Source: Candidatus Pelagibacter communis (GTDB taxonomy: Bacteria > Pseudomonadota > Alphaproteobacteria > Pelagibacterales > Pelagibacteraceae). From it: a stretch of 64,000 nucleotides of DNA. Of the stretch, positions 19,108 to 23,492 are shown piece by piece. The notes beneath the pieces were generated by a model. It made no database searches. It saw only the letters and a program-made list of their open reading frames with translations, and had not been told where the DNA came from. The first letter of the stretch is position 1. Each line of letters starts with the position of its first letter. The position numbers and the translations under genes were made by a program. The stretch covers positions 1 to 64,000 of the forward strand of contig NZ_CVSF01000068.1 in assembly GCF_001179925.1 (NCBI RefSeq), given 5' to 3'.

Positions 19108-19584
19108 ATGGAAAAAGAACCTATAACACTTAATGGATTGGAGAAACTTAAAAAGGAACTTATTTTTTTAAAAGAAAAAAAAAGACCTGAAATTGTTTCA
19201 GCTATTGCAGAAGCAAGATCGCATGGAGATTTAAAAGAAAACGCAGAATATCATGCTGCTAAAGAAGAACAATCGCATAATGAAGGAAGGATTACTGAGA
19301 TAAATGATATTATTGCAAGAGCGAATGTAATTGATGTCACTAAAATTAATAATGAAGGAAAAGTGATTTTTGGTTCAACTGTATATCTCGAAAATTTAGA
19401 TACTAGTGAAAAAATTAATTATAAGATTGTTGGAAAAGATGAAGCTGATTTAAAGGAAAAACTTATTTATTTTAAATCTCCTATTGGAAGAGGTTTAATA
19501 GGAAAAAATAAAAAAGATCTTGTTGAGATTAATACACCAGCTGGAACTAAAAATTTTGAAATTATAGATGTTAAATATATTTAA
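19108..19584 (+). CDS. greA: Transcription elongation factor GreA
   Basis: Rescues backtracked RNA polymerase by stimulating transcript cleavage. The 158-residue protein has the N-terminal coiled coil with the tip acidic motif ([18 protein letters not shown]) and the C-terminal FKBP-like domain ([14 protein letters not shown]). It starts 1 base after hemF. Its stop interlocks with the cca stop in a shared TTAA at 19581-19584. Confidence 0.97.
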
Positions 19585-20855
19585 TGATTGATTATTTTAT
19601 CAATTTGCTTTTCAGTCAATTGAAAATTATTGTTCACCCATTCTTCTTCGATAATCTTTAATTTATCTCCAAGATATTTTCCCTCGGGAATTTGATATTT
19701 TTTCATTAGAATTCTAGCACCAAATGGCATTGTTGGTAATATTTTAGACTGAAATTCATCAATAAATTTAATAAATTTGTTATTAATTTTTTTTGACCTT
19801 AGAAGTTTATAGCTTAAAATATCAATAACAGACTGTTTTCCCGTATAATAAAAAATTTTATTCAAATTATTTTCTGAAAAAGATTTGCTTGTAATTTTTT
19901 CTTTGTAAAAATTATCTATTATTTTAAGTCTTTTTTGGTCTTTTTTAGAAATATTAAATTTATAAATAAAGTAATCTGCATTATCTGATCCATCAATAAT
20001 TAAAACAGATAATAAAAATATAAAGTCAGCTTCTGCAATTTTTTTTTGAGTAAACTCATTTGGATATGAAAAAATTTTTATATTCTTGATTTGAGGAAAA
20101 ACAATTTCAAATAATTCAATTGAAAACTTGTCTCTAGAAAGTTTAGTTAAAAGATTAGATTTAATAAGTTTCTTAAGCTCATCTAATAATCTTTCTTTTG
20201 ATAAATTTGAAATTCCGACAATATTTTTTTTGATTAATTTGGCGGTTTTCAAATCATGTTCGTGATTGGAATAACTCAGATAAAATCTGAGATAACGTAG
20301 TATTCTTAAATAATCTTCTTGAATTCTTTTTTCGGGTTCACCTATAAATTTTATAATTCCTTTTTCTAAATCGTCCTTTCCATTAAATGGATCAAACAAA
20401 TTACCATCAATGTCTGAATAAATTGCATTAAAAGTAAAATCACGTCTTGAAGCATCTTTTTTCCAATCAGTTGAAAATTTAACTTCTGCATGCCTTCCAT
20501 ATGTTGCAACATCTTCTCTTAGACTTGTTATTTCAAAATGATAATCATTGATTACAGCAGTTATAGTGCCATGCTCAATTCCAGTTTTGTAATAATCAAT
20601 ATTATCTTTATTTAAAGCGTCACAAACCTGATTAGGACTTAAATTAGTTGCAAGATCAATATCGTCGACTTTTTCCTTTTTAATTATTTTTCTTATACAC
20701 CCACCAACATATCTTATTTCACTATCAGACGAAAAATTTTTGATTGAATCAAAAATTTTTTTTACAGGTGTAAGTTTAGCTAAATCTTTTACCCCTTGGG
20801 CAATATAATTTGAGTTTTGAGTTATCTTAATAAATTTATTAATAAAATTAATCAT
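19581..20855 (-). CDS. cca: CCA tRNA nucleotidyltransferase / poly(A) polymerase family
   Basis: Class II nucleotidyltransferase that repairs or adds the 3'-CCA of tRNAs. The 424-residue protein has the flexible loop and active-site block [10 protein letters not shown] followed by VDDIDLATN with the two catalytic Asp, then [12 protein letters not shown], and the [18 protein letters not shown] helix. Poly(A) polymerases share the fold, but the alphaproteobacterial form like this is usually the CCA-adding enzyme. Its ATG is only three bases after the encoded CCA of tRNA-Gln, so the mRNA 5' end may be made by tRNA 3' processing. Confidence 0.88.
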
Positions 20856-20858
20856 ATA

Positions 20859-20932
20859 TGGCTGGGGCGCTAGGATTCGAACCTAGGATGCAGGTACCAA
20901 AAACCCGTGCCTTACCGCTTGGCTACGCCCCA
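20859..20932 (-). tRNA. trnQ: tRNA-Gln (anticodon TTG)
   Basis: Read on the minus strand, 74 bases fold as a cloverleaf. The acceptor stem TGGGGCG pairs with CGCCCCA, the anticodon stem CGGGT pairs with ACCTG around loop TTTTGGT giving anticodon TTG (Gln), and the T arm is CTAGG-TTCGAAT-CCTAG. Discriminator G and CCA are encoded. It sits 32 bases after ispE and 3 bases before cca on the same strand, so it is probably part of that transcript. Confidence 0.95.
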
Positions 20933-20964
20933 ATTTAATTTTCGTATATCACAAAAAAATAAAT

Positions 20965-21807
20965 TTATATAGTTTTTGAAGTTTTACACCAGTAATTTCT
21001 AAATTTTTTTTTTACTTTTTTTCCAGCGTCTTCACACTTTTTGCCTGATTTAAAATATACAATTAACGCAGAGCCTGAACCAGTCATTCTTACAAATTCA
21101 ATATTTGATAATTTTTCTAAATATTTTTTTAAATCATTTAATTTTTGATATTTATTTAGCGTTATAGGTTCTAGATCATTCTTCATTTCTCTTAAAAAAC
21201 CGACACTAAACATTTTTTTTGAAGCAGGGCTAAATTTTGACTTAGAAAATTTTTTAACCCCTGAAAAAATTTCTCTGGTTTTACATCCAAAATTTGGTTT
21301 AATTATAAGAACGTATTTTTTTTTTTTTATTGAAAAAGTTTTTATCGTATTATTTGAGTTTAAAATTAAGTTTTTTGCATAAAGGCCAAGCACTACATCA
21401 AATCCGATTAAATTTGATATTTGAAAAATTTCCTTTTTACCAATTTTTATCAATTTTCTTTTTATTAAAAATTTTAAAATACTTGCCGCATTCATAGATC
21501 CACCACCAAGGCCAGCTTCTGATGGTATATTTTTTTTTATTATTATTTGATATTTATCTTTAAGTATTTTTTTTTTATCTATAATTTCAAATAATTTTGA
21601 GACTGTATTTTTTGATTTAATCTTTTTTGAGAACTTTCCTATGAATTTAATCTTATGTTTTCTCTCTTTAATTTTTTTTATTAAAATTTCATCATGCAAA
21701 CGTAAAAAACTAACTATACTCTCAATTTTATGTAATGAATTTGATTTGCCAATTACATTTAAAGCTAAATTGATTTTTGCATGAGATTTTAACTTAAAAT
21801 AACTCAT
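20965..21807 (-). CDS. ispE: 4-diphosphocytidyl-2-C-methyl-D-erythritol kinase
   Basis: GHMP kinase of the MEP isoprenoid pathway, phosphorylating CDP-methylerythritol. The 280-residue protein starts with KSHAKINLALNVIGK, has the ATP-binding loop PSEAGLGGGSMNAA, and a C-terminal MTGSGSALIVYF. It is very Lys-rich. Its ATG overlaps the last base of the TPR-protein gene, and tRNA-Gln follows. With ispH at about 38.3-39.2 kb it supplies isoprenoid precursors for ubiquinone and carotenoids. Confidence 0.93.
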   Translation of the reverse strand: MSYFKLKSHAKINLALNVIGKSNSLHKIESIVSFLRLHDEILIKKIKERKHKIKFIGKFSKKIKSKNTVSKLFEIIDKKKILKDKYQIIIKKNIPSEAGLGGGSMNAASILKFLIKRKLIKIGKKEIFQISNLIGFDVVLGLYAKNLILNSNNTIKTFSIKKKKYVLIIKPNFGCKTREIFSGVKKFSKSKFSPASKKMFSVGFLREMKNDLEPITLNKYQKLNDLKKYLEKLSNIEFVRMTGSGSALIVYFKSGKKCEDAGKKVKKKFRNYWCKTSKTI

Positions 21808-23492
21808 TAAGAGCTTTTAGGTCCATCAATTAATTTTATTTGAATTTTTTGAATTAGCTCTTGGTCTATATCTTCCATTTTTAAAACTGCAAACCAAAAA
21901 TATCTAGCTTGTATTTTTCTATTTAATTTCCATAAGATATCACCATAATGATCGTTAACTATTGGATCATCTGGCATTAATTCAACTGCTCTTTTTAAAA
22001 AATTTTCTGCTTTCTTAAAATCATTAATCAAATAATAAGCCCAACCTATAGAGTCAATTATATAGGGATCATCATTTTCTTGAGAATATGCATTTTCTAA
22101 CATTTCTATCGCTTCATTAATTTTGTAATCTCTTTCAAGCCAAGAATAAGCAAGATAATTTAAAACATATGCGTCGTCAGGATTAATCTTTAAAGAGTCT
22201 TGCAAATCTCTGTCTGCATTAGAGTAGTCTTTTAATCTCTCATAAGTCCCTCCTCTTCGATACAGCAAGTCTGCCTTCACTTCATCTTCATCATTTAAAG
22301 AATTTATAATTTTTGAGTAATACTTAATTGCTTGAGAATATTCTTTAGCATTTTTACTGAAATTAGCTATATCAAAAATGAATTTAATATTAGGATTATT
22401 TATCTTTTCGAATTTAGAAGTTAAATAATTTAGAGCTTCTTTTTTATTGGCAGTTTTTGAAATTATTTGAGCCTCCTTTTTTACTCTATACCAATAATAA
22501 AAATCTTGTTTTTTATTAAAATTTTTTAAAATTGATTTAGCTTCTTCATAATTTTTATTCAGATAAAAATTTTCAGCAACTAATGACAAATTAAAAATGA
22601 ATTCAGGATTCAAATAATTAGATAAACTTAAATAGTAGTTTGATTTTTCAAATTCATTTTGTGAAGAGTAAAGATTTGAAACAAGAAATAAAAACTCTGA
22701 TAAAATATCATTAGGATTTTTACATGAAAAAACTTTTTCAAACTCATCATAAGTTTTTTTTTCTATCCAGCTTTTTCCCTGTGACAACAATAATGTAGTA
22801 CTGATATAATCTAGATCATCAGTAATTTCTTTTGCCTCTTTGAATTGGTCCTTTTCAATTAAATATGTTAAATAAAAATAAATATACCTTGAATAGTCTG
22901 ATTGAGCGTTATTAATTAATCTTGAAAAATATGAGCCAGTTTTTTTATCATCCAAATAACACCTTTGAAAAGTCTCAGTTATCAAAGATAAGTTACCAAA
23001 ATCTTGGGTTTTCTCTTTGAGCTTTTTACTTTGAAATACAATAATAAATTGCTCAAGCGAATTATGAATAATAAATTTAAAACGATCTTTTTTCAAAGTT
23101 TCTGGAACATCTTTTAAAATTTTTCTAGCTTTATCAATTTTATTTTTTTTAAGATTGTCTAATGCTAACAAAATATAAGCTTCAAAAAAATTTGAATTAT
23201 TTTTTTCATTGTTTGTCTTAATAAGATTAATTGCTTGAGATAAATTACCCTCTAAGACTAATGATGTAACAAACCTTTCCAAATATGGATCATGCTTGTT
23301 CATTAATATTTTGGAAGATGAAAAAAAATCAAGAGCTTCAGAATTATTTTTATTTTCAAAAGCAACTATACCTGAAAAATATTTTGACAATGTTTTTGAA
23401 TTAAAATCCTCGAAACTATTGCTTTTAGAAAATATAGGACTCTGGTAAAGTAGAAGAAAAAATAAAATAATTATTACTTTTTGTTTAAACAT
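21807..23492 (-). CDS. Exported TPR-repeat protein
   Basis: A 561-residue protein of unknown function. It has an N-terminal signal peptide (about residues 1-22, hydrophobic core IIILFFLLLYQSPIF) and helical repeats throughout. The clearest TPR units lie at about residues 420-530, with the consensus pattern in YNNADRDLQDSLKINPDDAYVLNY-like and FKKAENFLKRAVELMPDDPI segments. No enzyme motif is visible. Such a TPR gene just upstream of ispE is seen in other Alphaproteobacteria. It starts 13 bp from the divergent uracil-DNA glycosylase. Likely a periplasmic or membrane-facing scaffold. Confidence 0.85.
   Translation of the reverse strand: MFKQKVIIILFFLLLYQSPIFSKSNSFEDFNSKTLSKYFSGIVAFENKNNSEALDFFSSSKILMNKHDPYLERFVTSLVLEGNLSQAINLIKTNNEKNNSNFFEAYILLALDNLKKNKIDKARKILKDVPETLKKDRFKFIIHNSLEQFIIVFQSKKLKEKTQDFGNLSLITETFQRCYLDDKKTGSYFSRLINNAQSDYSRYIYFYLTYLIEKDQFKEAKEITDDLDYISTTLLLSQGKSWIEKKTYDEFEKVFSCKNPNDILSEFLFLVSNLYSSQNEFEKSNYYLSLSNYLNPEFIFNLSLVAENFYLNKNYEEAKSILKNFNKKQDFYYWYRVKKEAQIISKTANKKEALNYLTSKFEKINNPNIKFIFDIANFSKNAKEYSQAIKYYSKIINSLNDEDEVKADLLYRRGGTYERLKDYSNADRDLQDSLKINPDDAYVLNYLAYSWLERDYKINEAIEMLENAYSQENDDPYIIDSIGWAYYLINDFKKAENFLKRAVELMPDDPIVNDHYGDILWKLNRKIQARYFWFAVLKMEDIDQELIQKIQIKLIDGPKSS

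Follow-up and report, generated by a model that had tools for sequence, protein, structure and literature searches.

The window analysed here is a 64,000-nucleotide stretch of the genome of Candidatus Pelagibacter communis, and its minus strand carries a compact row of genes that reads, in order, a TPR-protein gene, ispE, 32 bases, tRNA-Gln(UUG), the trinucleotide TAT and cca, after which a greA-type gene converges on cca from the opposite strand. The TPR-protein gene (21807-23492) lies upstream of ispE (20965..21807), whose best profile matches are ispE models with scores below their cut-offs. The gap between ispE and the tRNA (20933..20964) contains an extended -10-like element, TGTGATATA (20945..20953, consensus TRTGNTATA), a putative promoter of the tRNA-Gln/cca unit. 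The tRNA-Gln gene itself (20859..20932; anticodon UUG, TTG in DNA) was recognized by ARAGORN and scores 61.2 bits against RF00005; its 3' CCA is encoded in the DNA (20859..20861), as it is in 76 of 76 relatives from the same genus. The junction thus reads ...CGCCCCAG-CCA-TAT-ATG, with the spacer at 20858-20856 (20856..20858) and the ATG of cca at 20855. The cca gene (19581..20855) encodes a CCA-adding-type tRNA nucleotidyltransferase of 424 amino acids and overlaps at its 3' end by 4 bases with the gene for the greA-type elongation factor (19108..19584, plus strand). An earlier note on this DNA had placed tRNA-Gln three bases ahead of cca and 32 bases after ispE on the same strand, and both distances are exact by ARAGORN and the sequence: CCA ends at 20859 and ispE at 20965.

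The 424-residue product carries the PolyA_pol head domain PF01743 (100.5 bits against a Pfam cut-off of 23, E 1.2e-28) together with the RNA-binding domain PF12627. Among the NCBIfam models, PRK13299 (CCA tRNA nucleotidyltransferase) fits it best; the score of 185 bits does not reach the 290 required by this model, and the poly(A) polymerase model pcnB scores far lower, at 90 bits. The protein is the sole PF01743 match in the window's genome, which is 86% complete, and among the matches listed in an order-wide search there was one per genome. On these profile scores, CCA addition is the likeliest role of the product, and a class II CCA-adding enzyme its likeliest assignment. The ATG at 20855 looks like the real start of cca, given that an in-frame ATG stands 3-5 nt past tRNA-Gln in 76 of 76 same-genus relatives, that codons 2-14 change in the manner of coding sequence (135 changes fall on third positions vs 80 on first and 64 on second ones, totals taken from a per-column change table with indels left in), and that the frame, read upstream of the ATG, runs into a stop within tRNA-Gln. 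A wrongly chosen start codon is unlikely in view of the invariably present in-frame ATG and of coding-type substitution from codon 2 onward.

Conservation of the pair was examined across the order, in which a PF01743 search of 297 genomes gave a match in 267. The sequence upstream of cca was read in 77 of 180 genomes of the window's genus (g1; the 180 is obtained by subtraction, and the window is included), in 30 of 42 genomes from the rest of its family, the SAR11 family (f1, with seven genera, g1-g7), and in 35 of 45 genomes of the sister family (f2); the g1 loci were taken from the best-scoring matches listed, with some on short contigs left out. Within the SAR11 family, cca begins no more than 17 nt downstream of tRNA-Gln in 105 of 107 loci, and 3-7 nt downstream in 103 of 107. 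This direct succession was found in every locus read in g1 (77/77), g2 (2/2), g4 (4/4), g5 (15/15), g6 (6/6) and g7 (1/1), and in neither of the two g3 loci, where tRNA-Gln lies some 500 nt ahead of cca. In one of these g3 loci (L074) the intervening open reading frame encodes a GNAT acetyltransferase, and the other (L077) has similar sequence after its tRNA; given this GNAT gene, direct contact between tRNA-Gln and cca is not essential. A second scan, of the best 80 Pelagibacteraceae loci in named genomes, overlaps the 107-locus set, so that the two counts must not be summed; it recovered the adjacency in 77 of the 80, 'Ca. Pelagibacter ubique' HTCC9565 among them, with one spacing scored at 2 bases, and in the remaining three the match starts only 2-37 bases from the end of its contig.

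Outside the SAR11 family the picture is different. No tRNA precedes cca in the 34 readable loci of the sister family (g8, 29/29; g9 and g10, 5/5), the upstream sequence of a sixth locus outside g8 (g11) being unreadable where it stops at a contig end; in the one sister-family locus that was annotated (L006), cca lies downstream of DUF1285 and NUDIX genes. Elsewhere in the alphaproteobacteria, 42 cca loci were read (29 of them the top-scoring ones outside the order, with 13 added; 109 such genomes gave a match), and a same-strand tRNA stands upstream in one, a tRNA-Arg at 20 nt. This locus (L382:632-729), from another alphaproteobacterial family, has tRNA-Arg(ACG) on the strand of cca and an opposite-strand tRNA-Gln further upstream, and it is an independent tRNA-cca neighbourhood. 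Conservation across Pelagibacterales, which the earlier note had proposed to check, therefore holds throughout one family (105/107) and fails in its sister (0/34 readable loci). The arrangement is not limited to this genome, and its conservation across the family rules out a chance placement in a single genome; the sister-family loci without a tRNA and the 1/42 found elsewhere likewise rule out that the pair is ancestral to alphaproteobacteria broadly. Its presence family-wide in SAR11, its absence from the sister family and its rarity in other alphaproteobacteria indicate that it most likely arose in the SAR11 family. Among the literature matches listed, no title or abstract start names a tRNA-Gln/cca arrangement.

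A gap of three bases is in itself unsurprising in SAR11, since the median intergenic length in 'Ca. P. ubique' is given as 3 nt (PMC2704228) and since, with genes called by a simple ORF rule, the 53 same-strand gaps of the window have a median of 1 nt; the tightness is ordinary genome streamlining. By the same ORF rule, a same-strand gene lies within 10 nt of 7 of the 32 tRNAs in one g1 genome (G005) and of 9 of the 32 in a genome outside g1 (G001). The contacts in G005 are Glu-GIY-YIG (2 nt), Pro-NDUS4 (3), Gln-cca (3), His-hisS (4), Leu-NAD kinase (6), Leu-AMP-binding enzyme (6) and Leu-trigger factor (9). Six pairs with spacings of up to 20 nt are common to both genomes, namely Gln-cca, His-hisS, Leu-trigger factor, Trp-secE (secE of G001 being assigned by sequence similarity only), Pro-NDUS4 and Leu-AMP-binding enzyme, and the remaining pairs within 20 nt differ between the two. 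Most of the tight neighbours have no connection with tRNA (NDUS4, NAD kinase, AMP-binding enzyme, GIY-YIG, EamA, pterin dehydratase), and two, cca and hisS, encode tRNA enzymes. If 3-5% of genes are taken to serve tRNA metabolism, the chance of finding at least one such gene among 9-12 neighbours within 20 nt is about 0.24-0.46, and the chance of at least two is 0.03-0.12, so that the joint occurrence of cca and hisS beyond chance is suggestive and no more.

A like arrangement is found at hisS. At the loci read (L043, L160, L327-L355), tRNA-His stands 4-5 nt before hisS in 24 of 24 SAR11-family genomes examined (21 by ARAGORN, 3 by eye), and this contact was found in none of five sister-family genomes with a hisS match over cut-off. 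It is kept despite strong divergence of the tRNA-His sequence between genomes. In three of nine g1 genomes examined (G003, G005 and G020; loci L348, L350 and L353), the D-loop AAATAG of tRNA-His lacks GG and its T-loop AGCGTAA lacks TTC, as though this tRNA had lost its tertiary elbow. The acceptor stem covaries among these three genomes, and the G005 copy, which is the sole tRNA-His among the 32 tRNAs of that genome, scores 48 bits against Rfam; many shuffled sequences are predicted to fold just as stably as the divergent tRNA-His (z -0.7 to -1.5).

The spacer between tRNA-Gln and cca measures 3 nt in 71, 4 nt in 5 and 5 nt in 1 of the 77 g1 loci; elsewhere in the family it is 6 nt in g2 (2/2), 6, 6, 12 and 17 nt in g4, 5-7 nt in g5 (15/15), 4-7 nt in g6 (6/6) and 4 nt in g7 (1/1). 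Across the 71 three-base spacers, the tree requires 13 or more changes at each of the first two bases and none at the base adjoining the ATG, which is T in 77 of 77 g1 sequences, and T or A in the other genera. This invariant T belongs to the cca junction in g1, because the base before the ATG is mixed across the window's 67 genes (A 33, T 26, G 6, C 2) and is A in 23 of 24 hisS spacers. A U at position -1 can pair with A37 of the initiator tRNA, and such a pairing, or alternatively a cleavage signal, may be guessed to underlie the T. As to ribosome binding, there is no detectable Shine-Dalgarno signal: Shine-Dalgarno cores occur in 2 of the window's 67 genes vs 2.3 expected from shuffling (counted by a simple ORF rule, with uncertain gene starts), and starts without them look normal in the window. 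In the standard cloverleaf, seven bases (discriminator, CCA and spacer) lie between acceptor stem and cca AUG, and the predicted lowest-energy fold, which is not a cloverleaf, leaves six; the first cca codons are AU-rich and form a weak predicted hairpin at most. The view, already voiced in the earlier note, that a cca message cut from the tRNA would have almost no leader is borne out by a spacer that leaves almost no possible leader and that is held at 3-5 nt throughout g1.

The candidate promoter stands on the other side of the tRNA. The motif TRTGNTATA occurs within 45 nt upstream of tRNA-Gln in 71 of 77 g1 loci, 15/15 in g5, 6/6 in g6 and 1/1 in g7; it was not found upstream in the g2, g3 and g4 loci (0/8) or in the other 6 of the 77 g1 loci. 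When the g1 sequences are base-shuffled, on average 0.96 of the 77 contain it, and never more than 4. The element sits 11-16 nt before tRNA-Gln, save in two g5 loci scored at 23 nt, where copies of the element overlap and the leftmost match was scored. In the 77 g1 sequences, its columns show 0-4 parsimony changes each, apart from the R and N positions with 10 each, vs up to 15 per column in the bases between element and tRNA; conservation is not confined to the element, since four T-rich columns ahead of it have changed only 1-3 times. The consensus of the extended -10 promoter is TRTGnTATAAT. The conserved motif has this form, and probably represents a putative promoter before tRNA-Gln in four of the seven genera. 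A generic promoter/terminator scanner working from the sigma-70 consensus gave nothing above chance and did not list the element, and no terminator-like site was found in 20800-21100. TGNTATA is no general feature of tRNA genes, since it lies upstream of only 3 of 29 tRNAs in G005 (tRNA-Gln included) and 1 of 30 in G001.

From the 5' end of the tRNA onward, two sorts of -10-like hexamer occur: TCGAAT, which is the constant T-loop (4 of 6 positions), and others at or past the cca ATG, among them TATGAT (5 of 6), which overlaps spacer and start codon and would set the transcription start downstream of the ATG. A separate cca transcript starting inside the tRNA, the outcome that the earlier note held would count against it, finds no well-placed promoter there by sequence. 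With its three-base spacer cca appears to have hardly any space for its own promoter or leader, and this, together with the conserved element before tRNA-Gln, makes it most likely that tRNA-Gln and cca form one transcription unit, in which expression of cca very probably depends on the tRNA-Gln transcript. In g2, g3, g4 and the six g1 loci without the element, the unit must use read-through from ispE or another promoter.

What would release cca from such a transcript can be approached through the processing enzymes, for which profile searches covered six genomes (G000 and G005 in g1; G001, G009, G158 and G002 outside it). An RNase E/G domain scores over cut-off in all six. Canonical RNase Z (TIGR02651) does so in none of the six, with weaker matches in four, and the same search matched 14 of 14 controls, 9 of them over cut-off; the six genomes may carry a diverged RNase Z. 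RNase D gave partial matches in all six genomes, none over a cut-off that 2 of the 14 controls passed. RNase PH is over cut-off in the four genomes outside g1 and in neither g1 genome (G000 being 86% complete), where the only match is weak and lies within a frame of roughly 700 residues; trimming of tRNA 3' ends in g1 may therefore rely on enzymes other than RNase PH and canonical RNase Z. Direct cutting at the CCA end has precedents elsewhere: in some cases RNase E generates the mature CCA end directly, and the RNase Z of Thermotoga cleaves right after CCA (both described in PMC7479834), and in Propionibacterium acnes (PMC3848588) and Streptomyces coelicolor (PMC4681348) an endonuclease is described as cutting 3' a few bases past, or within, the encoded CCA.

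CCA is encoded in all 32 tRNAs of G005 and all 32 of G001 (64/64; that of G005 tRNA-His was established by a separate reading of the sequence), so that, read from the tRNA genes, the CCA enzyme of these two genomes acts in tRNA repair and not in maturation. That it should be needed to mature tRNA-Gln is ruled out by the CCA encoded in the window, in 76 of 76 relatives and in G005 and G001. The window genome's tRNA-Ser(GGA) (L045:1501-1589) ends in CCG rather than CCA, its G005 copy ending in CCA, and this end may need the CCA enzyme or may reflect a sequencing error.

Taken together, the most convincing reading, and one we consider reasonably probable, is that tRNA-Gln and cca make up a two-gene unit with its own extended -10 promoter, that the cca message is freed by tRNA processing, and that the tightness of the junction stems from streamlining. 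The unit would be transcribed from the promoter in the gap between ispE and the tRNA, possibly supplemented by read-through from ispE, with a transcript start expected about 4-8 bases before tRNA-Gln, near 20936-20939. RNase P would free the 5' end of tRNA-Gln, and a cut in the AU-rich spacer right after the encoded CCA, most likely by an RNase E-type enzyme and followed by trimming, would liberate the tRNA, and the remaining cca mRNA would begin with a leader of 0-3 bases (up to 7 in most other genera). The 5' end of the cca mRNA would thus probably be set by tRNA 3' processing, and the message, nearly leaderless, would be translated without a Shine-Dalgarno sequence. Streamlining would account for the tightness, and a regulatory loop would be unnecessary. 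Speaking against this reading are the lack of the element in three genera and six g1 loci, its absence from the scanner's list, the kept T-rich columns ahead of it, the GNAT gene in g3 and the chance that RNase E destroys the cca message.

Much of this overlaps with a plainer account, whose chances we regard as evenly balanced, in which deletion pressure simply pushed cca against a tRNA already upstream of it, processing and the kind of tRNA being irrelevant and transcription of cca coming both from genes upstream and from the tRNA promoter; co-transcription is compatible with it. The short median gap in 'Ca. P. ubique' (PMC2704228), the abundance of tRNAs within 10 nt of a same-strand gene (7/32 and 9/32), genes unrelated to tRNA included, and the appreciable chance (0.24-0.46, on the assumed 3-5%) of at least one tRNA-metabolism gene among 9-12 neighbours all speak for packing, as does the tRNA-Arg 20 nt before cca in 1 of 42 other alphaproteobacterial loci, which indicates that such neighbourhoods arise occasionally. 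Packing alone, however, leaves unexplained both the invariant spacer base (0 changes vs 13 and 13 in the 71 three-base spacers) and the persistence of the pair in the face of several other tRNA-gene contacts that G005 and G001 do not share. For a cca promoter within the tRNA gene, TATGAT is the one candidate, and the downstream start that this hexamer would dictate, the T-loop identity of the only other match and the position of the conserved element before the tRNA make it most improbable.

More ambitious are the accounts that tie the amount of enzyme to tRNA processing. A folded tRNA beside the AUG might block ribosomes until it is excised, so that processing or tRNA load would set the amount of the repair enzyme. 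The mere seven bases (six in the predicted non-cloverleaf fold) between acceptor stem and AUG, a spacer of 3-7 nt in 103 of 107 loci and the like position of hisS, a second tRNA-enzyme gene, 4-5 nt behind tRNA-His in 24 of 24 family genomes examined speak for this idea; the CCA encoded in 64 of 64 tRNAs, which leaves the enzyme unneeded for tRNA-Gln maturation, the two g3 genomes without contact and the uncompelling chance of 0.03-0.12 for at least two tRNA-metabolism neighbours weigh against it, and we consider it unlikely. Alternatively, cuts by RNase E may also fall inside the AU-rich beginning of cca and destroy the message instead of making it, each matured tRNA then costing one cca message and ribosomes on cca in turn delaying tRNA maturation. 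The presence of RNase E/G over cut-off in 6/6 genomes against 0/6 for canonical RNase Z, and AU-rich first codons with only a weak predicted hairpin, are consistent with such competition, which we nonetheless hold to be rather improbable. It is enticing to speculate further that in SAR11 tRNA excision is obligatory for expressing tRNA-handling enzymes, tRNA-Gln freeing cca and tRNA-His freeing hisS as nearly leaderless messages, in a bacterial tRNA punctuation whose processing state sets the amounts of repair and charging enzymes and in which the g1 T before the ATG is part of a cleavage or initiation signal; we look on this extension as doubtful. The earlier note's interpretation, that processing of the tRNA and expression of a tRNA-maturation enzyme may be linked, survives in its factual part, namely the family-wide adjacency, the near-leaderless cca and the promoter-like element that precedes the tRNA in four of the seven genera, and loses ground in its functional part to the commonness of tight tRNA packing, the CCA encoded in 64/64 tRNAs and the gene lying between the two in g3. 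Regulation of cca by tRNA processing is possible on this sequence evidence, and tight packing is normal for these small genomes.

SAR11 bacteria rank with the most abundant groups of bacteria in the ocean, and to our knowledge little is settled on how their messages begin and are translated. The tRNA-Gln/cca unit predicts an mRNA start that is made by the cutting of a tRNA and not by a promoter, and several further SAR11 contacts between tRNAs and genes offer tests of the same prediction. The cca and hisS cases, moreover, bear on the question of whether tRNA processing feeds back onto tRNA enzymes or whether packing alone is at work.

Operons that mix tRNA and protein genes are known from bacteria, the thrU-tyrU-glyT-thrT-tufB operon of E. 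coli being one. Another is secG-leuU (cited in PMC3985628). Like these, the SAR11 unit combines a tRNA gene with a protein gene of the same strand, no terminator having been seen in between, and processing would separate its parts. Of the features by which mixed tRNA-mRNA transcription units are judged, a conserved same-strand adjacency of tRNA and protein gene is present in 105 of 107 family loci, and the upstream promoter has its candidate in the element of g1, g5, g6 and g7, absent from g2, g3 and g4, with no terminator-like site. Unlike those operons, the SAR11 unit places the tRNA first, and in most loci cca follows 3-7 bases past the CCA with no room for a leader or a Shine-Dalgarno sequence. 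Short leaders as such have parallels, mRNA leaders under 10 nt being described as common in P. acnes (PMC3848588) and S. coelicolor (PMC4681348), and cleavage by the MazF toxin RNase, which yields leaderless mRNAs in E. coli (cited in PMC3848588), offers a precedent for leaderless messages made by cutting. In the parts of the P. acnes and S. coelicolor papers available to us, the leaderless mRNAs begin at transcription start sites, and none is described there as a product of tRNA excision.

A further likeness is to the tRNA punctuation of animal mitochondria, in which excision of tRNAs separates genes and exposes the next start codon; excision of the SAR11 tRNA would likewise expose the start of cca on a leaderless or nearly leaderless mRNA. 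As in mitochondria, the gene begins only a few bases past its tRNA in the SAR11 family (3-7 nt in 103 of 107 loci). Two defining features of tRNA punctuation are lacking, as tRNAs do not stand between most genes (7/32 in G005 and 9/32 in G001 abut genes) and canonical RNase Z, the 3' cutter of that system, is not found over its cut-off (TIGR02651, 0/6 genomes). The SAR11 unit differs further in its conventional promoter-like element. By its gene arrangement and by analogy, the tRNA-Gln/cca pair would belong with the known mixed tRNA-mRNA transcription units, and at its junction may work in the manner of mitochondrial tRNA punctuation.
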